Made by a program: the position numbers and the translations under genes. This document shows positions 8,559 through 54,144 of a stretch of DNA of 64,000 nt, piece by piece (the first letter of the stretch is position 1; each line of letters starts with the position of its first letter). Source of the stretch: a virus; IMG/VR virus record IMGVR_UViG_3300030385_002649, positions 248,001 through 312,000 of that record; one strand, written 5' to 3'. The notes under the pieces are model-generated. The model was not told the DNA's origin. It did not search any database and saw only the letters and a list, made by a program, of their open reading frames with translations.

Positions 8559-11500
8559 ATGGTTCATGTTAAAGATTGGGGCACGCTTAAGAAGCTGACC
8601 GCTAAATTGCTAGCGGTCAAGAAGCTGCGCGAGCCCTATATAAGCAAATTGAAGTTCGAGCTTAAAGAGATCGACAAGCAGGGCGCGAACCGCTACTGGC
8701 TAGATCTATTTAATAGCCGAGAAAAATTCAATCACAACAAAAACGGTCTAGTCTTGCCGTACATCTTGGGCTTAACGAAGATTGATCCAATCGACAGGGG
8801 TATTCCACACAAGGTCGAATACCATCCTGACTTCCCTGATATTGATATCGACTTCTTACCAGAAGCTAGAGAGCACGTCAAGAAGTATGCTAAAAAACAA
8901 TATGGCGACGATTTCGTTTGTACTGTTGGCATGTGGATTAGGTATAAGACCAAGTTGGCGCTCCAAGACGCCGCTACCGCGCTTGGCGTCAACCGTGGAG
9001 AAGTCATTGCGGTTTGTAAGCACCTTCCTGAAGAATTTGACACAATGCCTTTCGATCAAGCTTATGAAGAATTCGAGAATTTCAAGATCTTCGCTGATGA
9101 AAACCCAGAGCTTGTAAGACTAGCTTATGGCATGACTGGAAAGATTAAAGCTCAGAGTAAGCACGCTGGCGGATTGATCATTTCTAGCGTCCCGATTAGA
9201 GATCACGTCCCTCTGACTTATTCTGGCAAGAAAGGTGATAAACAGTGGACCTCCGAGTGGACTGAAGGCATGGCCGACTCTCAGTTGTCGAAGTTCGGTC
9301 TTGTAAAGTTCGACATTCTCGGGCTCATTAATATCGCTTATATTTGGAACTGCAAGAAGTTGGTCGCTAAAAACCACGGAGTGAAAATCGACTTCGAGGA
9401 TATCGATCCCGAAGATGACAGGGCGGGCTGGGCAGAATACGCTGATGGCCGAGTAGAAAAAATCCTGCTCAACGATCCTGATACGCTAGAGGCCGCTGAC
9501 AACCTAAAATTAGCTTCTATCTTCCAGTTCGACACTGATTTCCAACAGAGTGTTGTAGAAAAAGGTGGCGTCAGATCTTTCATGGACTTGGTAATCTATA
9601 CTAGTCTTGGTAGACCTGGTCCGCTTCCTATGATTGATGTCTATATTGGAAACCGAGACGACCAATTAGAAGGGTGGAACGACGTTTTACATCCTATCAT
9701 GAAGGATATCCTAAAAGAAACTAAGGGCGTACTAACATTCCAAGAACAGCTTCTTAGAACGTGGACCGAACTCTGTGGCTTCACAATGCCTGAAGCTGAG
9801 TCTGCGCAGAAGGCAGTTAAAAAGAAGAGGATCGAAATCCTGGATAAGATTGGTCCTAAGGTTATCGAGGGTGCAGCTGGGCTGATCGGCCAGGATGAGG
9901 CTGAAGCTCTCTGGGATAAGATGGTCAGCTTTGGTCGTTACTGCTTCAACAAATGTCTTGCTTCTGACACCATAATTATAGACCCGCTTACCAATGAGTC
10001 TATGACGATTGAAGAATTATATCAATCTAAAAAATCGTTTAATTTGTTATCGTATGATGGTAATAAACCTTTCATAGATGAAGTGGTTGATGTTTATTAT
10101 AATGGAAAACAAGAAGTTTTCGAAATAGAATTTAGCCATGGCATTAAACAAACGGTGACCATTGGTCATAAATTTATGAATGAATTTGGAGAGATGGAAG
10201 AAGTTTCTTCATTATTAGAGTCTGGTCATGCTATCAAATATATAAGAGATGGAGTGATTAATGTACAAGAAAGTAAACGATCAAATAGAACTGAAAATTG
10301 TCGAGCTTTATCAAAACAGGTTGACTTACAATCAAATTTTGAAAGAGATAGAAATAAAATTGAGCCATGGGACGATAACTCGAGTGATAAAAAAACACGG
10401 CGTGAAGAGGAAATTCTTAACCAAAGCATGCAACACAGTGGATCACCATTATTTCGAGAATATAAATTCTTCGGAGAAAGCCTATTGGTTGGGCATGTTG
10501 ATAGCAGATGGTTATATTCACGAGGCAAGAGGATATGTGAGCTTGCAACTTCATCACAAAGACCAAAGCTTAGTAAAGAAATTTGGAGAAGATTTGAAGT
10601 CGCCAAGAAAAATATTGACTTGTCGAAAAGGAGATTTTACACAAATGCGGAGTACGGTAAGCAGCAAGAAGATGATTGCGGATTTGAAACGTCTTGGTGT
10701 CATACAAGGGAAGTCTACCAAGGAAACTATTCCGGACGTTCCATTCATGTCACACCTATTAAGGGGGTTGATGGATGGGGACGGATGTATTGTGGTCAAT
10801 TCGAAAGGGTACCCAATGATAAGACTTGGGTCGAGTTTTGCTTGTTTAGAGAAAGTGAGAACCATTTTAGTTTCCGAATGTGGGGTGAGGGCTTCAAAGA
10901 TTACGGAATATCAAAACAATTTTTGTGCTATTTGCTGGACTGGTTTGTCTCAGACCCAGGCGATACTGAAGTTTTTGTATCAAGATGCCACAAGATTTCT
11001 GCTAAGGAAAAAGCAAATGGCCGATGCAATATTGTCAGCATTAGAAATCTCGGAGTTAAAAAGACTTATTCCCCAGAGATGACGTCCGATCATCATAATT
11101 ATCTTACAAAACCGCAGAATGGAGAAGTGGTTCATGCTAATAGCCACGCAGTCGCGTATATCATGGTCGCTTATAGGTGTTTGTGGTTGAAGACTTATTA
11201 TCCTGCTGAATGGTGGGCTTCAGTCTTGAGCCATTGCCCTGCCCACAAGTTCGTACGTTATATGGGCGCTGCAAGAACTGACAAAATCGCCTTTGGCACG
11301 CTAGACGTGGACAACCTGACCAAAGACTTCACAGTCCAAAAAGGGAGCATTATTCCTGGTCTATCGTCTATCAAAGGAATCGGAGACGAAACCGCCCAAA
11401 ACTTGGAGGACGAAAGTGCTAAAGGTACGTTCGAGGGGATTGAAGAGTTCATCGAACGGTGTGGCAAGAGTAAGGCTAACCTAGAGAGGCTGGTCAAGCT

Positions 11501-12344
11501 AGGCGCTTTCGACAACATCAACCCTAATAGGAAAGCTCTCTGGATGTGGTACCTATACAAATACGCCACTGGGAAAGAAATCACCGAGCTTAGAAGACAG
11601 ATTGATTATTGCTATACTTGGTCGCCCCTCGCCGTTCAAGAAGAACGGGATAGACAGAAGATTGAGTATAAGAGACAATATCAAAACAGAAAAATTCCTA
11701 AGCGAATCACAACTTGGATTCCGGCTGCCCCTTCTGTTACGCCGCGCGTGTTCAATCCTGATGTGGAGCTTACGAAAGAAGATATTCGGCTTGGCAAAAA
11801 GTTTAAGCTTGATTATGAACAAGTTGTCGCGTTGTTCCCAACGGATTTTAAGTTGGCAGAGCGGCTGGAAGCCGAGCACGATTACTTGGGCTTTTATTGG
11901 AGTTCTCCACTCGACATGTTTCAACACTCTGACAACACTACTATTGAATTCGCAAAGACTTGCGGACTTATTGAATGTGTTATCGAGGAGAAATTTGTTA
12001 GGCAGGGAACAAACGGAGAATATTGCATTCTAAACGTGAACGATGGTCAAGCGACTGCTCGTGTTAACGTTTGGGGCAATGAGGTGCACCTTAACGATCC
12101 TGAAGTTCTTCAGCCTGGAACAGGTGTCCAAATGGAGGTCATTTGGAAGGATCAATATAGGAGCTTTAGTTTGAAGGCACGGTCGATCATTATACCGTTG
12201 CCCTTCAAAGAAGAGGACGAAGACGACACATACTTTAAAGAGTTGTCTAAGGCCACCACTTCAGGTTCTGATGAACTTGACGAATTAAAAGAAATGTTGG
12301 AGAATATCGATGATCTTGAAAGAGATTTCAATGAAGCAGAGTGA
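8559..12344 (+). CDS. dnaE: DNA polymerase III alpha, catalytic part, with intein
   Basis: 1261-residue precursor. Catalytic Asp94 and Asp96 lie in FPDIDIDF and the third, Asp252, in LVKFDILGL, as in bacterial DnaE. VLTFQEQLLRT and FGRYCFNK / SHAVAYIMVAYR are fingers blocks. After the intein follow a helix-hairpin-helix region (IPGLSSIKGIGDETAQNL) and an OB-like domain (CVIEEKFVRQGTNGEYCILN) near the C-terminus. Intein residues 466-861 interrupt the polymerase at FNK/SHA. Without the intein the mature part is about 865 residues. No strong Shine-Dalgarno is seen before the ATG at 8559. The N-terminal PHP part is the separate gene ending at 7695. Confidence 0.9.
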   Translation: MVHVKDWGTLKKLTAKLLAVKKLREPYISKLKFELKEIDKQGANRYWLDLFNSREKFNHNKNGLVLPYILGLTKIDPIDRGIPHKVEYHPDFPDIDIDFLPEAREHVKKYAKKQYGDDFVCTVGMWIRYKTKLALQDAATALGVNRGEVIAVCKHLPEEFDTMPFDQAYEEFENFKIFADENPELVRLAYGMTGKIKAQSKHAGGLIISSVPIRDHVPLTYSGKKGDKQWTSEWTEGMADSQLSKFGLVKFDILGLINIAYIWNCKKLVAKNHGVKIDFEDIDPEDDRAGWAEYADGRVEKILLNDPDTLEAADNLKLASIFQFDTDFQQSVVEKGGVRSFMDLVIYTSLGRPGPLPMIDVYIGNRDDQLEGWNDVLHPIMKDILKETKGVLTFQEQLLRTWTELCGFTMPEAESAQKAVKKKRIEILDKIGPKVIEGAAGLIGQDEAEALWDKMVSFGRYCFNKCLASDTIIIDPLTNESMTIEELYQSKKSFNLLSYDGNKPFIDEVVDVYYNGKQEVFEIEFSHGIKQTVTIGHKFMNEFGEMEEVSSLLESGHAIKYIRDGVINVQESKRSNRTENCRALSKQVDLQSNFERDRNKIEPWDDNSSDKKTRREEEILNQSMQHSGSPLFREYKFFGESLLVGHVDSRWLYSRGKRICELATSSQRPKLSKEIWRRFEVAKKNIDLSKRRFYTNAEYGKQQEDDCGFETSWCHTREVYQGNYSGRSIHVTPIKGVDGWGRMYCGQFERVPNDKTWVEFCLFRESENHFSFRMWGEGFKDYGISKQFLCYLLDWFVSDPGDTEVFVSRCHKISAKEKANGRCNIVSIRNLGVKKTYSPEMTSDHHNYLTKPQNGEVVHANSHAVAYIMVAYRCLWLKTYYPAEWWASVLSHCPAHKFVRYMGAARTDKIAFGTLDVDNLTKDFTVQKGSIIPGLSSIKGIGDETAQNLEDESAKGTFEGIEEFIERCGKSKANLERLVKLGAFDNINPNRKALWMWYLYKYATGKEITELRRQIDYCYTWSPLAVQEERDRQKIEYKRQYQNRKIPKRITTWIPAAPSVTPRVFNPDVELTKEDIRLGKKFKLDYEQVVALFPTDFKLAERLEAEHDYLGFYWSSPLDMFQHSDNTTIEFAKTCGLIECVIEEKFVRQGTNGEYCILNVNDGQATARVNVWGNEVHLNDPEVLQPGTGVQMEVIWKDQYRSFSLKARSIIIPLPFKEEDEDDTYFKELSKATTSGSDELDELKEMLENIDDLERDFNEAE
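9954..11141 (+). mobile_element. Intein in the polymerase catalytic gene, 396 codons
   Basis: The splicing element begins at Cys (CLASDTIIIDP, block A) and includes block B around KQTVTIGHKF. It ends with block F/G sequence MTSDHHNYL...GEVVHAN, followed by Ser+1 of the extein. The extein join FNK-SHAVAY restores the conserved DnaE FNKSHA sequence, which fixes both borders. The residue before the terminal Asn is Ala rather than the usual His. Splicing blocks occupy only about 100 N-terminal and 35 C-terminal codons. The central part in the polymerase frame (about residues 568-841) has no intein-like content, and the endonuclease gene lies there in another frame. Confidence 0.85.
10261..11082 (+). 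CDS. LAGLIDADG homing endonuclease nested in the intein in another frame
   Basis: 273 residues in the +1 frame relative to the polymerase/intein frame. Two LAGLIDADG helices are present: WLGMLIADGY (76-85) and RGLMDGDGC (168-176), each with its catalytic Asp. An N-terminal segment LTYNQILKEIEIK...SHGTITRVI looks like a helix-turn-helix. It has its own signals: GGAG at 10251-10254, six bases before the ATG. It ends with TGA at 11080-11082, inside codons for the C-terminal splicing block. It would cleave intein-less polymerase alleles to drive homing. It occupies the slot between blocks B and F where an in-frame endonuclease would normally sit. Confidence 0.88.
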   Translation: MYKKVNDQIELKIVELYQNRLTYNQILKEIEIKLSHGTITRVIKKHGVKRKFLTKACNTVDHHYFENINSSEKAYWLGMLIADGYIHEARGYVSLQLHHKDQSLVKKFGEDLKSPRKILTCRKGDFTQMRSTVSSKKMIADLKRLGVIQGKSTKETIPDVPFMSHLLRGLMDGDGCIVVNSKGYPMIRLGSSFACLEKVRTILVSECGVRASKITEYQNNFCAICWTGLSQTQAILKFLYQDATRFLLRKKQMADAILSALEISELKRLIPQR

Positions 12345-31675: not shown

Positions 31676-32713
31676 TTGGATGTGGCTGAAAAACTGCGGA
31701 TCTTATGTTGTAACCCCGACGGAGGGGCGTTCTTCTATATTACTAAAGGTTGGGAAAACGCTTTTAAAGCCTTGGGGCACGATTTTGTTAGGTGGAAAGG
31801 CGATTTAGCAACGCTAGAGAAATATAAGCCACATTTGTATCTTGGTTGCTCTGGCTGGAGGCAGAAATTTCCAGTCGGCAAATACGACACTAAAATTGGT
31901 ATCCATGTCAATCCGTGGGGATCAACCGTGTTGAAGCCAGAACCCAGAGAACCAGATATCAATGAGCCAGCTGAGGCTAGAAAATGGACTCTAGCACAAA
32001 AACCGGATTTCGTTTATTGCTATGGAGGCGCTCACGATATCCCGACCATGTGGAACCTTTGGCAAGAGAAAACCGGAATCCCAGTTGTTCCAATGCCAAC
32101 CGGTGGAGACGCGGTCGTTCATAAACCAGTCAACCCTGACTCGAAATACGTGTGTGATGTAGGGTTTGTTGGGGGTTATTGGCCATATAAAGCTATGAAC
32201 ATCGACAAATTTCTTACTCCCGTCATTAAGAAGTACAACTCTAGAGTGTATGGATGGGGAGGCTGGAAACATATTGGCAATAAATCTAAAGGCCCCATCG
32301 AAGACCATGAAGTCAATAAGCTCTTTTCTTCGGCCAAGATTTGTCCTGCGATATCAGAACCTCACACTATAAGGTACGGTATTGATATTCCTGAAAGGAT
32401 TTGGAAAGTTCCACTCGGCGGCGGCTTCACTATTTCGGACCCTGTAAAAAATCTTGATAAGTATATTAGCTATAACGACTTCATCACAGCAAGAAACCCG
32501 CAGGAATACGCTAACTTAATCGCACATTATCTGCCACGAGAAGAAGCTAGAAAGAAGTTAGCAAAACGGCAAAGACTTGCCGTCCTTAAAGATCATACTT
32601 ATTTTAGTAGAATTCAAGGTTTTTTAAGGCAATGTGGGTTCGATGCGGAAGCTGATGAGGCTCAGAGAATGGTTGACAAATTAGTGAAAGAAGCTGAAAA
32701 TGAAGTGGTATAG
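31676..32713 (+). CDS. Glycosyltransferase, GT-B type (CgeB-like)
   Basis: 345 residues. The likely start is TTG at 31676 (AAAGG four bases before); GTG at 31682 is an alternative. C-terminal features include FVGGYWPYK, an ISEPHTIRYGIDIPERIWKVPLGGG block and a helical end. These match the nucleotide-sugar-binding part of CgeB/GT4-like enzymes. The usual N-terminal Rossmann sequence (RILCCNPDGGAFFYITKGW) is present. It follows the bifunctional enzyme by 26 bases and may add a further sugar in the same pathway. Confidence 0.75.
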   Translation: MDVAEKLRILCCNPDGGAFFYITKGWENAFKALGHDFVRWKGDLATLEKYKPHLYLGCSGWRQKFPVGKYDTKIGIHVNPWGSTVLKPEPREPDINEPAEARKWTLAQKPDFVYCYGGAHDIPTMWNLWQEKTGIPVVPMPTGGDAVVHKPVNPDSKYVCDVGFVGGYWPYKAMNIDKFLTPVIKKYNSRVYGWGGWKHIGNKSKGPIEDHEVNKLFSSAKICPAISEPHTIRYGIDIPERIWKVPLGGGFTISDPVKNLDKYISYNDFITARNPQEYANLIAHYLPREEARKKLAKRQRLAVLKDHTYFSRIQGFLRQCGFDAEADEAQRMVDKLVKEAENEVV

Positions 32714-32954
32714 CGGGACTATAGAACATAAGGGACATGACGTTCTTATTGAGGGAACGTTCACTGATTCTGTTGTTAGAATTACAGCTAATGGTTACCA
32801 ATTATATGAGAAAGCGATAAATTTTTGGGCATACCAAGAAGTCAATGCCTCTGATATATTCGATAAGTATCAGGGAATGGTAAGAAAATGCGAGAAGAAA
32901 GTTGCTCTACTTGTAGATTCTGGAATTATAGCTTCAGAAGAACGAGACGTATAA
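32700..32954 (+). CDS. Small hypothetical protein
   Basis: 84 residues, overlapping the glycosyltransferase by 14 bases. Beta-rich start (KWYSGTIEHKGHDVLIEG), helical end. No motif recognised. Confidence 0.5.
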   Translation: MKWYSGTIEHKGHDVLIEGTFTDSVVRITANGYQLYEKAINFWAYQEVNASDIFDKYQGMVRKCEKKVALLVDSGIIASEERDV

Positions 32955-32999
32955 AAGAGTATTTAAAATATTAGTAGCTAAAGGCTAAGGATAAAATAA

Positions 33000-33710
33000 A
33001 TGACTACAGCAACTCAAACAGCACAAAATACAGAGACTCAAACTAAGAAAACGCTAATTGTACTGTCAGGTAAGACACAAAAATGGTGCCAAAGAATTGC
33101 AGGCATCGCAATGCGAAGAGCCTTTAAAGTCAAGGCTTATCAAAGCGTTCTTGACGAAATGACTAAAAAGGGTGGTCAAGACCAGTTCACTTTCTCTGTC
33201 CTTCCAAAGATTTATCATCGCAAGCGCATCAGCCACACCGACGGACAAGGAAGGATCTTCCTGCACCCCGAGTTCTTCAATGATAACGGGGGTCTCCGCA
33301 AGAAAATTGGCAAAGAATCGAGAGACGAATTGAAAGCCGCTATTTTCAAGGAAGTTGTCCAGCACCACCTCAAGAGAACTAATATTGAGTTTTTCAAGGT
33401 GATGGTACGATGCCCATGGGTTGGGAAAAGAGTGACTGGCGCGGAAGGCTCAGATCAGTCTGCTCGTTCGATCCTTGAAGGTCGCAAGCAAGATAAGAAA
33501 ACCACCAAACGCAAGATGCACGAAGTCTCAACTGGCCTAAAAGAAGAAGTTAGATTCTGGGATCTTACGGCACGCAAACACGTAACAGTTATGGCCGACA
33601 TTTTCCTTGCTGATGGTAAAATTAAGATTGCTCGCGCTGAGCGCGATGGTCGCAAACTTCGGACGATGTTGAAAGGTGCTGAGACCGTTAAAACAAAACT
33701 CAGTCTTTGA
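33000..33710 (+). CDS. Hypothetical basic protein
   Basis: 236 residues. A Thr/Gln-rich N-terminus, then KTLIVLSGKTQKWCQRIAG and a very basic body (GRKQDKKTTKRKMHE; RDGRKLRTMLKG). The charge suggests DNA or RNA binding. No family recognised. The AGTATTTAAA motif lies 33 bases before the ATG, consistent with its own promoter. Its TGA abuts the TGA of the convergent gene. Confidence 0.5.
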   Translation: MTTATQTAQNTETQTKKTLIVLSGKTQKWCQRIAGIAMRRAFKVKAYQSVLDEMTKKGGQDQFTFSVLPKIYHRKRISHTDGQGRIFLHPEFFNDNGGLRKKIGKESRDELKAAIFKEVVQHHLKRTNIEFFKVMVRCPWVGKRVTGAEGSDQSARSILEGRKQDKKTTKRKMHEVSTGLKEEVRFWDLTARKHVTVMADIFLADGKIKIARAERDGRKLRTMLKGAETVKTKLSL

Positions 33711-33739
33711 TCAGGAAGGCCAATGCCTAACGATCAAAG
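33705..33739. terminator. Hairpin spanning a convergent gene junction
   Basis: CTTTGATC at 33705-33712 and GATCAAAG at 33732-33739 form an 8-base inverted repeat with an inner GGC/GCC pair. It covers both stop codons of the convergent genes. No T-run follows in either direction, so termination efficiency is doubtful. Confidence 0.4.
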
Positions 33740-34343
33740 CGTCGAACGCTAAGTTATTGCTTGTGTCAGCGGCAGTTAGGGCTAGAGCCGTAGTGAGATC
33801 TTCACTTCCTACTGTGCGAGTAAAAATGGCCCCTTGAGTACCGCCAGCAGGGCCTAATGCTATGCTTACACCGGCCAGCTGCGAAGCGGATCCAGTTCGT
33901 ATAATTGTCCCTCTGACTATAAATTCTTGAAAACTGCTAAGAATTGTATTAGTGAATATTGTTGTCGCTCCTAAAGAAATTGTTAGTATGTCAGTGCTTC
34001 CTCCGCTAGTGTTCCGTCCCCAAACCTCAAAAGAGATATTTTCGCCGGTAGCGTTTAGGGTATTAGCGGGTAGAGTCCGAGTAGCATCGGACCCAGTGCC
34101 TGGTGATGTAGAGGTGCTTTCTGTTTCTGGAACTCCAGTAATACCCGCATGATCTAGAGACGCGTGAGCTGCGATAGTCAAATCGCCAACTCCAGTGATA
34201 CCAGTGTGATCTAGAGTCGCATGAGCTGCGATGGTCAAATCGCCAACTCCAGTAATACCAGTGTGGTCTAGAACCGCGTGAGCCGAGACCGCTGCGTCTG
34301 CTGCTTCTAACGGTGACTTTCCGTCGTCTATAAAAAGTGGCAT
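33711..34343 (-). CDS. Tail-fibre-type protein with tandem repeats
   Basis: 210 residues. The N-terminus carries two full copies and a partial third of a 19-residue unit (AHAxLDHTGITGVGDLTIA). The C-terminal two thirds are beta-rich, with DIL, ISLGATTIF and VGSEDLTTALA segments typical of phage fibre domains. Downstream of the protein at 34346 with two bases between them, in the same transcript. Confidence 0.65.
   Translation of the reverse strand: MPLFIDDGKSPLEAADAAVSAHAVLDHTGITGVGDLTIAAHATLDHTGITGVGDLTIAAHASLDHAGITGVPETESTSTSPGTGSDATRTLPANTLNATGENISFEVWGRNTSGGSTDILTISLGATTIFTNTILSSFQEFIVRGTIIRTGSASQLAGVSIALGPAGGTQGAIFTRTVGSEDLTTALALTAADTSNNLAFDALIVRHWPS
34151..34282 (-). repeat. 57-base tandem repeat inside the fibre gene
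   Basis: Two full units (34151-34207 and 34208-34264), differing at a few positions, plus a partial third unit beginning at 34265. The unit length is a multiple of three and encodes the 19-residue repeat, so copy-number change would keep the frame. Confidence 0.85.

Positions 34344-42296: not shown

Positions 42297-42316
<20 letters not shown>
42164..42316 (-). CDS. Small acidic protein, 50 residues
   Basis: Frame open from ATG at 42316 (GGGAGGG site four bases before) to TAA at 42164. Begins MDPLRPEVGIGDFKTAA and ends in an acidic helix EELIEDLIEADENEN. It overlaps the end of the poly-lysine protein by 20 bases. The clear ribosome site and protein-like composition support it. Function unknown. 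Confidence 0.6.
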
Positions 42317-43060
<744 letters not shown>

Positions 43061-43064
<4 letters not shown>

Positions 43065-43495
43065 CCCAAAGACCTATACCTATTAGTTAGATAACCGACC
43101 ATCGCGTCGACAAGTGGAGCAACTTCATCGCTAAGGCTCAATAGATGAGCGTTCTTCTTAGAAAATCGTCTACCGTGTTGATTAGGTTCAAAAACCCAAG
43201 ATTGCGATTTGACATCTGGCCTACAGGAAAGATTGGCAGACTTATATCTAGTAGAGCACTTGCCATTAGCGAAATCGACGCCAACCTTAGGCAACCTCTT
43301 TCGAAGAGCGGCTCCTAGGGCGAAGTTATAATCTTCTAGAGCCCTATACAATTCTCCATCGAGTTGTTCGATCTTCTCTCTAGCATCTTGAATGTCGCGC
43401 TGGATGTTTAGAACTACGTCCAACTTACTTCTAACTTCTGATCCATCTGGAAGAGACTCAAGTTCTTCGTTCAATACCTTTTCAAACTTTTTCAT
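43061..43495 (-). CDS. Hypothetical protein
   Basis: 144 residues. N-terminal coiled coil (RDIQDAREKIEQLDGELYRALEDY), then a more basic region with GRRFSKKNAHLL. No family recognised. It overlaps the mobile endonuclease gene by 14 bases, which shows how closely that element was accommodated. Confidence 0.5.
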
Positions 43496-44834
43496 TACGT
43501 CCCAGGCTTTTCTTATTTTTGTGCCACTTCTTCAACGCGCAAGAATGGCATAAATATTTACCATGTTTAGCCACCGCCTTGGCGAAATTTTTAGGTTTTA
43601 AACACCTAATGTTTCCACATTGACAAACAGCATCTACAAGATCAACTTTTGCGACATCAACATTGTTTGATCTTTTAATCCAAAAAATGAATTTGTTTTT
43701 TGGAACAGTGTTAACTCGCCGAAAATTATTAAGCTTAGTATATTCCTTTTCGGTAAGTTTCATTTTTGAAGCATGATCCCACATTGTCTTTTTATGATAA
43801 ATGTTTCCTCTGTCATCTTCATAATAATACGAGGGCCTAGTAGACCCATCTTCAATCCAATTTGACGCTTTATAAACCGTACCAGTATGCCCGAAATGTG
43901 GATCTGAAAAAGAAATTAGTAGACATATGTCTGGATCTTTTTTGATGAGCTTTATAGATCTAGATAGCGAAAAGCTAATCAAATTATGTTTCTGATATCT
44001 AGGATCCACAATCAATCGCACTAATTCAAGGACTTGTTTGTTTTGCAGATTGTGCCTCTTGCACACTGTATTATAGCTAGGGTTTGCAAAAATTGTGACA
44101 CCTATCAAAATATCCTTAAGAAAAATGCCATAAGTTTTTCTTGTATTCTTTCTAAACCGTGGGAGGTAATGATATTTAGACATGAACGAAATAGCTTCAT
44201 GCTGTTCAATAGCAGTAACTCTTACGTCCGTAAAATTGAAGTCTATCAATTTTACGTCTTTTTGTGTGATGTCTTTTAAAATCTCTTTAAGCTTATTGAT
44301 GCTTAATGTGTCCCGTTCATTGATATAGACAATTTTCAAATCGGCATGTTTTTTAAGATAATCTGACTTTGCGAGATCATTTCTGATATTGTTAGGAAGA
44401 GAATGCCAATACTCCCCTTGGACTTCTAACAATATATTAAAATTTATAAGATGAAAATCGAATGAGTAAAATCCGATCTCGCATTGTTTTTGATAACTTA
44501 TGTCTAACAATTTTAAGACGTTTTCTACTGCGAGTTCTGGCTTAGTATCGCAAGTTTTCCCTGCGCATGGCGGTCTGGATCCCGCTTTTCTTTCAGCTGC
44601 CAATTTTAAAGCTTGCGCTCTCGCCTTGCTTTTATGAAGATCAGAAGAAAAATACTCGTCTCTTTTTTCTTTTGCTTCTTTAGAACGCAACCCAGTAGTC
44701 ATTTTGTTTATTGATTTGCGGTAAGACGAACTTTTAGAATCCCATGCTTTTTTCATTGCAGACGAATGCCTACACCATCTACAATTTAAATCTGATCCTT
44801 TTAGATGGCCATTAGCGCAAGTTTTGTTAGACAT
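43482..44834 (-). CDS. Vsr-like homing endonuclease fused to a Mom-like domain
   Basis: 450 residues. Order: a Cys-rich start (CANGHLKG..CRWC), basic helices with NUMOD-like spacing, a Vsr/DUF559 nuclease (TKPELAVENVLKLL, FYSFDFHLINFNILLEVQGE, YWHSL), then a Mom-type GNAT domain and a C-terminal zinc ribbon (CQCGNIRC..CHSC). The Mom-like part has YGIFLKDILIGVTIF, LVRLIVDPRY and FSDPHFGHTGTVYKASNW, close to the SYADP..GH.GYIYQATNW pattern of Mom proteins that modify adenine. Base composition is more A+T-rich than in the flanking tail genes, suggesting recent acquisition. Confidence 0.75.
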   Translation of the reverse strand: MSNKTCANGHLKGSDLNCRWCRHSSAMKKAWDSKSSSYRKSINKMTTGLRSKEAKEKRDEYFSSDLHKSKARAQALKLAAERKAGSRPPCAGKTCDTKPELAVENVLKLLDISYQKQCEIGFYSFDFHLINFNILLEVQGEYWHSLPNNIRNDLAKSDYLKKHADLKIVYINERDTLSINKLKEILKDITQKDVKLIDFNFTDVRVTAIEQHEAISFMSKYHYLPRFRKNTRKTYGIFLKDILIGVTIFANPSYNTVCKRHNLQNKQVLELVRLIVDPRYQKHNLISFSLSRSIKLIKKDPDICLLISFSDPHFGHTGTVYKASNWIEDGSTRPSYYYEDDRGNIYHKKTMWDHASKMKLTEKEYTKLNNFRRVNTVPKNKFIFWIKRSNNVDVAKVDLVDAVCQCGNIRCLKPKNFAKAVAKHGKYLCHSCALKKWHKNKKSLGRNEKV

Positions 44835-44850
44835 CAGTATTAAATACTGA

Positions 44851-47721
44851 TCACGATTCTGTCGAGTCGCTGGTTAGTTCCAACTGTCCGTGCGTGAATT
44901 CATTGAATGAAGTGAGTTGATCGCGGATTTCGACTTCTCGAATAATAGCACCAGGCCACAATCTGAAACCAACTTTTCCAACTTCTTGGAGAGCGGCGAC
45001 TGGGAAGTAAGGAGTGCTCACAACGACTGGGACTTCAAGAGAGGCGGAGGCAGAAGGATCAGGGTTCACAAGAAGACCATTCCACCATACCCACATCTGC
45101 CCGTCGCGGTACATGATTTCGAGTTCGTTCCATTTCTCCTCGTCACCATCAACTGGCGCTGGGAGTGATCCACCTTCGTAGACCTTAAAACCGCTTGGCT
45201 CTGATGGCAATTCTTCTGTTCCGAAAACTATAAACCCGTCTTGAGTAAGAACTCGGCTTGTTGAAAACTGTCCAGGGCGGAAGTCGCGGACGAAATCATC
45301 AGAAAAATCGTCTTCAACGTTCAAACGATAAGCTTCATTCATGTCGAGAACACCAGCTCTAACTTGCAGCTGGACCGACTCAGCGTCAGTGTTGTCATTG
45401 ATCGAGAACTCTAATCTTAGAGCTGTAGCGCTGCAGTCTTGTCTTAAAAGCTCGACAACTGTCGTTCTATCTGGGACTGGAGTGCCCAAAGCTTCCTCAA
45501 TTTCAGTAATGTTAACCGCATCTTCGCCAGCAAGATCTGTCGCTCCGGTTCCTTCAATGTCAGGAATGGCATCGATGTCGAATGGGAACTTATCCAAGAA
45601 TCCGACAAGCATTACGCCATCGTCGTCCGAAGCTGGGAAGGCTGTTTTAAATTGCCAACTCCATGTGGTGTTTCTCCAGATACCCGTCAGAGATCTGACA
45701 GTTCCACTAGGAGGAAGGTCATGCCAGTTCACACCCTTAACAACAATATATTCGTTGCCTTGGAAAGGACCTGTTGCGACAGTGCCTCGTCTAACAACCT
45801 TCATATAACGGTCATCATAGCTGTCGATTGGACCTCTAAGAATGACGTCGATTGGTGGGAAACGGCTGTTATCTGGTCGACCAACTAAAGCCTTAACATA
45901 GACGTTTTTGTGATCACCTCTATGCCAGAGCCACACTGGACGTTCTTGATCCGATTGAGGAGGTGTTTCTGAGACTCTTAGCCCTGGGATGTTAGGATCG
46001 ATATCTGCAACGTATTGATTGTTGATCGCTACGCCGGACGGGTCGCCCGTCGAAGAGTTCACGAAAATATCGAAAGTATCTCCAGCCTGTACGAGGCTGG
46101 CTTGGTCGTCAGGATCAAAGAGAGTGATCCGGGAGGCCGTGTTCTCTACTATAGTAAATTCAACGTTCTGCAGATTTCCAGACGTGAAAGTAACCATTCT
46201 GTCAGCTAACTCATTGGTTGCGAACTGACCCGACGCGTTAAGTGCGCCTTGGGCTATAATGACAAAATTCGGAGTTGGGTCGTCTACGACATCGTCAGGC
46301 TCTACAGAATCAACTGTGTCTTGCCTGATAACTTGGCCCTCTTCAGTAGAAGCTGTAACTTCACCGTCGTCAGACAGAAGGAATGGGTCTTCAAAAACCG
46401 TCATCCCCCATTGTGATTTTTCAAAGAGTCTAACGTCAGAGAGGTTCCTGTCGATAGAAGTGATTTCAGTAGGAGCTACACCAGGAAGTTCACCTCTGCA
46501 TTCGATCGTCTCTCCGAAACGAACGCAAGCTGATTTACTCCACAGAGTTCCTGGATTCAGCTTTGGAGGTCTGCTAAAGAATCTCTGTACGAGACGTTGA
46601 CCGTTAACCACGCCGATTTGAAATTCCCAAATTTGAACTAGCGTTCCGACTGGCAAGATGTCACAAGTGGCGTCTCGTACTAGTTCTCTAGGAGCGAACA
46701 AGTCAGTTGGAGAGTTCTCAGGGTTGTTATATTGCCAAACATTGGTGGCCGTGAAACCATCGCCCTTAGGCTGAGCGGTATTGATGGACCAAAAGCGACA
46801 GGTATATTGGTTCGTCGATAAGATCGTTGAGGAGAACCCAGTAACGACAGCCATCTGTCTAGTTAAAGTGTGTCCCTTATAAAGAATTGACCCCAAAAGG
46901 TCTGGATCGCTTTGGACATCTAGGTCGAATCTGATTTGGTTGCCGTCATCGTCGAGACCCATAAACCAGACTGATTGTGGGACGCCCGTCGATCCCGGTG
47001 TGAACGCCCAGCCTACGTTAGTTGTAGAATTGGAGTTTCTGGCCAAGATCAATTCGAACTTAGCCCTGTTTGGGTTGGGGGTGTTGAATCTTTGGAATAG
47101 AAGGGCTGGAAAATTACCCTTCATATTGAGAGTTGGGCCAGGGTTCGATGGGTTTAGGATCGTACTTTCTGGGAATTGGTAGATCTTAAGTTCGCCGTAT
47201 ACGTTTACGTCTGGCATCTTACCAGCGCAGGATGGCGGCCTAACAGCCGCTACATCCGATTCGTCTTGGATCCAGAAGATCTGAGCGCATTCTTCACACC
47301 CACAGTTTAGTGGTAATGGAGAATCTACAGTGAACCGGATTACGTTTCCGATTCTTTCTAGGCTGATGAATTCGGTTCCAGCAGCGAGCATCACGTCGCC
47401 TTGGAGCATTCCTCCATCATCTGGGAAACCTGATCCGCTGAACCCTAGAACTCCGAGGCGAGTTTGAGTGACCGCATCCAGTTTTGCCTTATCCGATGAG
47501 GACATCAACCCTGGAGTATCTGTGGTCGCGTTTGGAATCGGATCTTCAGCGATGTGCGTCTGTCCGTGGAATGACGGGATGATAATCTCCGATTCCTTGC
47601 CGTAAAGTGTACAGGTTTCTGCATCGAATTGGTAGCCTGTTGTCAGGCCATCCGGTCCGGAGATGCGCAAAAATTGCTGGTCCACTAGCTGCGGCTTGTT
47701 TGGGACTTTATATTGTACCAC
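44851..47721 (-). CDS. Large tail or baseplate protein with lectin-like end
   Basis: 956 residues. Begins with VPNKPQLVDQQFLRISG and a STPGLMSSSDKAKLD-like motif common in phage fibre anchors. It contains a four-cysteine cluster (CGCEECAQ, SCAGK) at about 140-165. The C-terminal about 200 residues (RLEFSINDNT; KWNELEIMYRDGQMWVWWNG) resemble concanavalin-like carbohydrate-binding domains. It is probably a receptor-binding or baseplate fibre. First gene of the minus-strand unit facing the adenosine deaminase operon. Confidence 0.65.
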   Translation of the reverse strand: MVQYKVPNKPQLVDQQFLRISGPDGLTTGYQFDAETCTLYGKESEIIIPSFHGQTHIAEDPIPNATTDTPGLMSSSDKAKLDAVTQTRLGVLGFSGSGFPDDGGMLQGDVMLAAGTEFISLERIGNVIRFTVDSPLPLNCGCEECAQIFWIQDESDVAAVRPPSCAGKMPDVNVYGELKIYQFPESTILNPSNPGPTLNMKGNFPALLFQRFNTPNPNRAKFELILARNSNSTTNVGWAFTPGSTGVPQSVWFMGLDDDGNQIRFDLDVQSDPDLLGSILYKGHTLTRQMAVVTGFSSTILSTNQYTCRFWSINTAQPKGDGFTATNVWQYNNPENSPTDLFAPRELVRDATCDILPVGTLVQIWEFQIGVVNGQRLVQRFFSRPPKLNPGTLWSKSACVRFGETIECRGELPGVAPTEITSIDRNLSDVRLFEKSQWGMTVFEDPFLLSDDGEVTASTEEGQVIRQDTVDSVEPDDVVDDPTPNFVIIAQGALNASGQFATNELADRMVTFTSGNLQNVEFTIVENTASRITLFDPDDQASLVQAGDTFDIFVNSSTGDPSGVAINNQYVADIDPNIPGLRVSETPPQSDQERPVWLWHRGDHKNVYVKALVGRPDNSRFPPIDVILRGPIDSYDDRYMKVVRRGTVATGPFQGNEYIVVKGVNWHDLPPSGTVRSLTGIWRNTTWSWQFKTAFPASDDDGVMLVGFLDKFPFDIDAIPDIEGTGATDLAGEDAVNITEIEEALGTPVPDRTTVVELLRQDCSATALRLEFSINDNTDAESVQLQVRAGVLDMNEAYRLNVEDDFSDDFVRDFRPGQFSTSRVLTQDGFIVFGTEELPSEPSGFKVYEGGSLPAPVDGDEEKWNELEIMYRDGQMWVWWNGLLVNPDPSASASLEVPVVVSTPYFPVAALQEVGKVGFRLWPGAIIREVEIRDQLTSFNEFTHGQLELTSDSTES

Positions 47722-53148: not shown

Positions 53149-54144
53149 TTAAACCTCCATCATCAACAATCTAGAAACTTGAATTTTTCTACGCCAGGCT
53201 TCTAATAAGTCGCCCATAGTTTGTTCTAAAGTATGTTTAGGTTCCCACCCAGTTGCCGCAAGGAACTTTGAAGAGTCGCCATATAGAAGAGTTACGTCAG
53301 ATGGGCGCAACCTAGCTTGGTCAACTTTCTTCTCAATGGTTCCCTCGTAAGTTGACATGCCAATAAACAAGTCTAGAAGGTCACCAATACTGATTCTCAT
53401 ACTAGAACAGATATTGTATGGCTCGCCAGGATTGCATTTCTCCATCGCGACCCAATAGGCTTCCGCCACATCTCTAGCGTCGGTATAGTCTCTGACGCTA
53501 TCTAGATTGCCATGATAGATGACGGGGTCTCTCAACCCGGCTTCAATTTCGGCGACTTGTTTACTAAAACTAGACTCTACGAAAGCATCTCCTCGTCTGG
53601 GCCCAGTATGATTGAAAGTCCTCGTGATGACGGAATGGATCCCGTAAGATTCAAAATATTGGTAAGCGAGATTTTCTTGAGCACACTTACTTACCGCATA
53701 AGGAGAAATCGGCCTTAGGTCGTTATCTTCGGTGATTGGAACTTCATGTTCCAAAACCTTTCCAAATTGTTCGCTAGAACAGGCAACTTGAACCTTAGCA
53801 TGCGGCGCAAACTCTTTTAGCGCCTCTAGAATATTGATTTGGGAAGTAACGTTGTTAGTAATCATATCAGAAGGTTGATCCCAACTTGAACGCACAAAAC
53901 TTGTAGCCGCTAGGTGAAAAACCCTGTCTGGTTTTACTTCTCTAACAACTTTGAAAACGTTGATAGCGTCTCTAAGCTCACAATCGTGCAGCTTGATCTT
54001 TTGGCTGATATGGTTGATGTTCGACAGATCCGATCTGTATCTCACCGTACCGTGAACCTCCCAATCTTGGTGGTGTTTCAATATATAATCCGCTAGATGG
54101 GATCCGGTCTGTCCTGTAATTCCTGTAATCAATACTCTCTTCAT
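53149..54144 (-). CDS. gmd: GDP-mannose 4,6-dehydratase-like SDR enzyme
   Basis: 331 residues. Rossmann GITGQTGSH (8-16), catalytic SSE (123-125, ACSSEQFGK), YAVSK (Tyr149, Lys153), and RTFNHTGPRRGDAFVESSF, the substrate-binding block typical of GMD. SVRDYTDARDVAEAYW also matches. It would convert GDP-mannose to GDP-4-keto-6-deoxymannose, with NADP bound. The partner reductase is not in the window. The glycosyltransferases at 29673-32713 are potential users of the product. Confidence 0.85.
   Translation of the reverse strand: MKRVLITGITGQTGSHLADYILKHHQDWEVHGTVRYRSDLSNINHISQKIKLHDCELRDAINVFKVVREVKPDRVFHLAATSFVRSSWDQPSDMITNNVTSQINILEALKEFAPHAKVQVACSSEQFGKVLEHEVPITEDNDLRPISPYAVSKCAQENLAYQYFESYGIHSVITRTFNHTGPRRGDAFVESSFSKQVAEIEAGLRDPVIYHGNLDSVRDYTDARDVAEAYWVAMEKCNPGEPYNICSSMRISIGDLLDLFIGMSTYEGTIEKKVDQARLRPSDVTLLYGDSSKFLAATGWEPKHTLEQTMGDLLEAWRRKIQVSRLLMMEV

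Follow-up and report, generated by a model that had tools for sequence, protein, structure and literature searches.

The Mom protein of phage Mu is a known anti-restriction enzyme, and Hef has been known as a homing endonuclease since 2005. In phage U5, hef cleaves nrdB (review PMC2988022). The homing endonuclease I-Bth0305I binds DNA through multiple domains (PMC3943268), as the protein described here also appears to do. Fusions of a Mom domain with a REase-fold endonuclease have been described in jumbo phages, with several per genome and five in PA5oct (Iyer et al. 2021, PMC7824862). The existence of Mom-nuclease fusions in jumbo phages has been known since 2021. What is new here is the evidence that these fusions are mobile homing genes, their tie to Hef and the intactness of their Mom signature.

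We analysed a stretch of 64,000 nucleotides (the window) that contains one such fusion gene (Table 1). The window covers positions 248001-312000 of a virus record with a total length of 370,804 bases. The fusion gene begins 16 bases past the stop codon of the upstream gene, and its last 14 bases are shared with the beginning of the downstream gene. Tail-fibre-like genes are found near this locus.

Table 1. Features of the fusion gene and its surroundings (positions within the window)
Feature	Position	Strand	Details
Mom-nuclease fusion gene	43482..44834	(-)	450 aa; read as a gene of the free-standing homing-endonuclease type
N-terminal Cys/His-rich motif, putative zinc finger	44772..44819	(-)	residues 6-21; Cys columns 6, 18 and 21 conserved
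Vsr-like / EDxHD nuclease domain	44259..44552	(-)	residues 95-192; E100, D126, E137, H144, D153
Mom acyltransferase (GNAT) domain	43665..44237	(-)	residues 200-390; H222, Y223, R273, S287, D311, Y321
C-terminal Zn-ribbon-like putative DNA-binding module	43509..43622	(-)	residues 405-442
Upstream flanking gene, virion-type	44851..47721	(-)	956 aa; left side of insertion site
Downstream flanking gene	43061..43495	(-)	144 aa; right side of insertion site
Near-perfect palindrome ATCAGTATT-T-AATACTGAT	44833..44851	.	between upstream stop and fusion start codon

Architecture of the fusion protein

From the N- to the C-terminus, the 450-aa protein consists of a Cys-rich end, a Vsr-like (EDxHD) nuclease, a full Mom domain and a Zn-ribbon-like stretch. 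PHROG describes it as a 'Mom-like DNA modification protein' (E 5e-37), and two PHROG families of ~535 residues, one of which is labelled homing endonuclease (E 5e-10), cover both its nuclease and Mom parts. For structural comparisons we used an AlphaFold model of the fusion (input alignment of 32 relatives, mean pLDDT 81.5), in which the N-terminus and some linkers are predicted with low quality.

Residues 204-390 match the Pfam Mom family PF25680 (E 6e-32; 111 bits against a curated cut-off of 27.1). In a PDB sequence search, residues 192-369 match Mu Mom (8bv8, E 3e-8), which is the closest solved structure for that part. The earlier note on this DNA had compared the GNAT-like part to Mom and pointed to the conserved Asp and Tyr residues of that enzyme. 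Consistent with this, the model aligned with 8bv8 at a Z-score of 18.5 over 173 residues, while other GNATs and acetyltransferases scored 14.6 and lower, and the Asp and Tyr are present as D311 and Y321 (D139 and Y149 of Mu Mom). The other signature residues, H222, Y223, R273 and S287, correspond to H48, Y49, R101 and S114 of Mu Mom, where all Mu numbers follow the annotated 232-residue protein. The signature H-Y-E-R-N-S-D-G-Y is common to the window protein and the stand-alone Moms. S287 is the counterpart of the Ser that is changed to Ala in 8bv8, which carries the PDB title 'inactive mutant S124A'.

The Pfam match of the nuclease part to Vsr is weak (residues 93-145, E 9e-4, below the cut-off). 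The PDB sequence search matched residues 96-186 to the homing endonuclease I-Bth0305I (3r3p, E 1e-3), and the model superimposed on 3r3p with a Z-score of 13.2 and an rmsd of 2.2 over 92 aligned residues. All the EDxHD residues are present (Table 1), the first position being E or Q across the family. Zinc fingers, a Vsr/DUF559 nuclease and a Mom-like GNAT domain had earlier been claimed to occur together in this one protein. The two enzymatic parts of this claim stood, while the fingers are better described as putative, being Cys-rich motifs at both ends. As judged from their residues, both enzymes of the fusion look active.

The C-terminal CxC...CxxC stretch (405-442) resembles the N-terminal module of one paralogue (37%), and it aligns with the N-terminal region 29-70 of the family profile. 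This resemblance of the C-terminal module to the N-terminal one of the paralogues indicates that DNA-binding modules are shuffled around a common core. An Rfam scan of the window and of the surroundings of the paralogues detected no intron, and by this test the fusion gene is not intron-encoded. PADLOC detected no defence system and returned only a weak 'homing endonuclease' match.

Distribution and conservation of the family

Two further fusions are encoded in the same 371-kb record, one of 484 aa at 203126-204580 (+) and the other of 555 aa at 32218-33885 (-). When viral contigs were scanned, the window protein recovered 20 loci and an alignment recovered 216; 80 of the latter were taken for analysis, and the collection amounts to 95 distinct fusions. 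Giant-phage records have up to eight Mom copies each, nearly all in reading frames of 440-660 residues. In-frame stops in some copies were not counted as decay, because intact ORFs often adjoin the counted stops. Among 84,980 bacterial and archaeal genomes, we found only three whole-core loci, all of them on short contigs of metagenome bins, besides nine nuclease-only relatives.

The catalytic positions D126, E137, H144 and D153 of the nuclease and H222, Y223, R273, D311 and Y321 of the Mom domain are each 98-100% conserved in the 95 distinct fusions. Only seven proteins, some of which are fragments, deviate at any of these nine positions. The column of S287 is occupied by S in 85 and by T in 9 of 94 fusions. 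In a close pair of fusions, constraint was strongest on the Mom domain (dN 0.084, dS ~1.6, dN/dS ~0.05), dN being 0.16 for the nuclease and 0.22 for the DNA-binding part. The conserved active sites together with the low dN of the Mom domain therefore indicate that selection keeps this domain working, besides the nuclease.

Two proteins of 541-542 aa, L035 1501-3126 (-) and L051 424-2052 (+), have the Mom domain at the C-terminus and an N-terminal part without the common nuclease profile.

Relation to Hef

The core profile of the fusions matched the nuclease and Mom-like parts of Hef-type proteins with 81-123 bits. Among cultured phages, the matched proteins were the 'Hef-like homing endonucleases' of RaK2, AR9, Cr30 and VAP7, the 'nuclease/acetyltransferase' of Meroveus and Hef of the T4-related phage U5 (81 bits). 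Alignment of the fusion core with Hef by hhalign gave a probability of 99.9% over 280 columns. These profile comparisons indicate that the fusion core is homologous to Hef over the nuclease and the GNAT/Mom-like part, and they reveal that Hef carries a Mom-like domain. A search of the available literature returned no paper that links Hef with Mom or notes this domain of Hef. Another protein annotated as a homing endonuclease (L177:2687-3871) was unrelated and was left out of the Hef alignment.

The signature of the Hef branch, H-[LIFM]...G, is absent from the window protein, which has H-Y...N. The tree places the stand-alone Moms in one clade and the Hef proteins in a second, to which one fusion, L159, also belongs. 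The third copy in the genome under study has Hef proteins as its nearest neighbours in the tree. On the sequence evidence, the window family is a sister group of Hef and not Hef proper.

Insertion sites and mobility

The earlier note had regarded the gene as a mobile nuclease and had suggested a comparison with empty sites in relatives. Such sites were found: homologues of both flanking genes are adjacent, without the fusion, in three records (L059, L060 and L061), in which the 956-aa gene is 64-66% identical. None of these three records, one of which is 185 kb long, has a Mom match, and the same is true of a 395-kb record with a homologue of the 956-aa gene. Scanning with the 144-aa downstream gene as the query gave no relatives, whereas the 956-aa upstream gene did find some. 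In another giant phage, the nearest relative of this fusion (43% over residues 6-440) is encoded immediately past the 3' end of the homologue of the 956-aa gene, and a different downstream gene follows.

Other insertion sites recur as well. Nine distinct fusions, with core identities of 18-58%, adjoin homologues of a gene whose label, head-tail adaptor, comes from a weak PHROG match (E 1e-4); they lie on its 5' or 3' side and on either strand. A PurZ-like gene and a 950-aa gene are further points at which fusions cluster. One of the copies in the genome under study lies at the adaptor gene; its nearest relatives are fusions from the same gene, and L068 has no insert there. Part of the sharing of neighbours among related phages can be due to common descent.

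A case of allele replacement was observed between L088 and L094. The dS values of the flanking genes are 0.16-0.53 compared to 1.77 for the fusion, and identity drops at the edges of the fusion gene. The description as a mobile nuclease is thus upheld by the sequence, the structure prediction, the empty sites, the recurrent insertion sites and this one case of allele replacement.

Some of the loci have peculiarities of their own. In L073 (331-3212), an intein-like insert interrupts the adaptor gene at residue 119 and contains an ORF on the opposite strand with HTH and TnsA-like nuclease domains. Mom-nuclease fusions are present on both sides of this split gene, making it a hot spot for mobile genes. 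Comparison of L070 (3053-8393) with L066 (5394-9149) showed that the adaptor gene of L070 is inverted relative to its neighbours and has the fusion on its other side, which suggests a rearrangement around the insertion. In the genome under study, at ~33.9-35.1 kb (L067 8938-10065), a PurZ-like (succino-amino-deoxyadenylate synthase) gene, with a match of E 7e-70 that is below the curated cut-off, adjoins the third fusion. Similar PurZ-like genes are located beside fusions in L014, L017, L018 and L036.

Other features of the window

The palindrome listed in Table 1 occurs only once within the window. At the RNA level, its sequence could fold into a hairpin of 8 bp that covers the start codon of the fusion, and translational control of the endonuclease by this hairpin is possible. 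Elsewhere in the window, a DNA polymerase III alpha gene (8559-12344, +) has an apparent intein; residues 466-540 correspond to the NCBIfam intein N-terminal splicing region, and the polymerase match is split around the intein. An ORF at 42297-43064 (-), in the neighbourhood of structural genes, has an unbroken, homopolymer-like run of ~12 lysines. A nucleotide-sugar epimerase gene (53149-54144, -; PHROG E 7e-72) is present among tail-type genes, and similar ORFs are found near the homologous site in L060-L062.

Discussion

On balance, and with modest confidence, we read this gene as a free-standing homing endonuclease gene with an adenine-acylating Mom domain that likely protects the carrier from the enzyme's own cuts. 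It would be an intron-less member of a large family carried by phages, with Hef as the sister group. Its modular Zn-ribbon and helical parts would recognise a long site that lies within a conserved phage gene or close to it; in this case, the site is probably located near the 3' end of the 956-aa gene. The nuclease of the EDxHD type would cut this site in co-infecting phages that do not have the gene, and repair would then copy the gene across, as the precedents of Hef and T4 suggest. The Mom domain most likely adds an acyl-type group to adenines in the DNA of the carrier phage, and this modification is the most likely way in which the carrier would escape cutting.

A homing endonuclease that resides beside its intact target faces the problem of self-cutting, and a built-in DNA modifier would solve this problem directly. 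The target would be intact in the carrier because such genes sit beside, and not inside, the target gene. The cuts made by free-standing endonucleases fall hundreds to thousands of bases away from the endonuclease gene itself (PMC2988022); therefore, the presence of the gene alone leaves the target in place, and the carrier needs some other protection. Given that the genes next to this free-standing enzyme are intact and that both its active sites are strongly constrained, self-protection through Mom is a reasonable proposal, and it is plausible that the Mom domain keeps the nuclease from cutting its own gene copy. However, the T4 free-standing homing endonucleases have no modification domain, so the mechanism as such does not require protection by Mom. 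The Hef branch homes despite its changed Mom signature; full Mom activity is thus not essential to homing. The insertion in the window lies exactly at the junction of the flanking genes and could therefore by itself destroy a target spanning this junction. We also put forward, more tentatively, that each copy may be a self-immune homing unit, in which a single recognition array directs the cutting of empty alleles as well as the acylation of adenines at the unit's own intact target. Each of the copies in a giant-phage genome, of which there are up to eight, would then have a private immunity. If true, such a unit would amount to a selfish restriction-modification system with homing as its means of spread.

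The Mom domain could, on the other hand, be a cargo that modifies the phage genome broadly against host restriction, as in Mu, and is not tied to the cut site of the element. Its signature is identical to that of the stand-alone Moms, including the anti-restriction Mu Mom, and a selfish gene that pays its carrier would be kept under purifying selection. However, up to eight copies in one genome would be redundant for a single global modification, the related 185-kb and 395-kb records have no copy at all, and the DNA-binding parts vary between copies, which suggests separate targets. We regard a general anti-restriction role as unlikely on these grounds.

The published proposal is that of a restriction-modification system (Iyer et al. 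2021, PMC7824862): within a single chain, Mom would mark the phage DNA and the nuclease would attack the DNA of the host or of a superinfecting phage. The presence of two enzymes of opposite effect in one chain, both conserved, agrees with this proposal, which also overlaps with homing, as a homing endonuclease works by attacking related competitors. But the many copies, the empty sites, the recurrence of sites and the allele replacement are the behaviour of a mobile homing gene, the closest matches of the nuclease are homing endonucleases, and the family hardly occurs as a defence gene in bacterial genomes; a role primarily in restriction-modification thus appears quite unlikely. It is very improbable that the Mom-like domain has lost its catalytic activity and persists in the homing endonuclease as a relic with no more than a DNA-binding or structural role, because the signature is intact in the window protein and in nearly all of the 95 fusions and the Mom dN/dS is only ~0.05. 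What speaks for such a relic comes from the Hef branch, in which two signature positions are changed and for which, to our knowledge, modification has never been reported.

If the fusion is indeed a homing endonuclease that is protected by its own Mom domain, the built-in modifier would join two classes of selfish DNA, the homing genes and the restriction-modification systems. The fusions would also make up a large family of Mom enzymes, possibly site-specific instead of broad, that could be useful for studying and writing rare adenine modifications.

Comparison with known systems

Mu Mom has the same fold and every signature residue of the window Mom domain, but it is a stand-alone protein of 232 residues without a nuclease, whereas the Mom domain of the window protein is fused to one. 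I-Bth0305I (PDB 3r3p) shares the nuclease fold and the catalytic residues; in contrast to the window protein it has no described Mom domain, and it comes from a mobile intron, as its PDB name states, whereas the Rfam scan detected no intron for the window gene. The fusions of Iyer et al. 2021 have the same architecture as the window protein; the available text of that report reads them as restriction-modification enzymes and proposes neither mobility or homing nor a link to Hef (PMC7824862). Hef belongs to the same length class as the window family and, like the window gene, fits tightly between two conserved genes, the order in U5 being nrdA-hef-nrdB. The Hef proteins have L, I, F or M in place of the signature Y and G in place of the signature N, whereas the window family keeps H-Y-E-R-N-S-D-G-Y.
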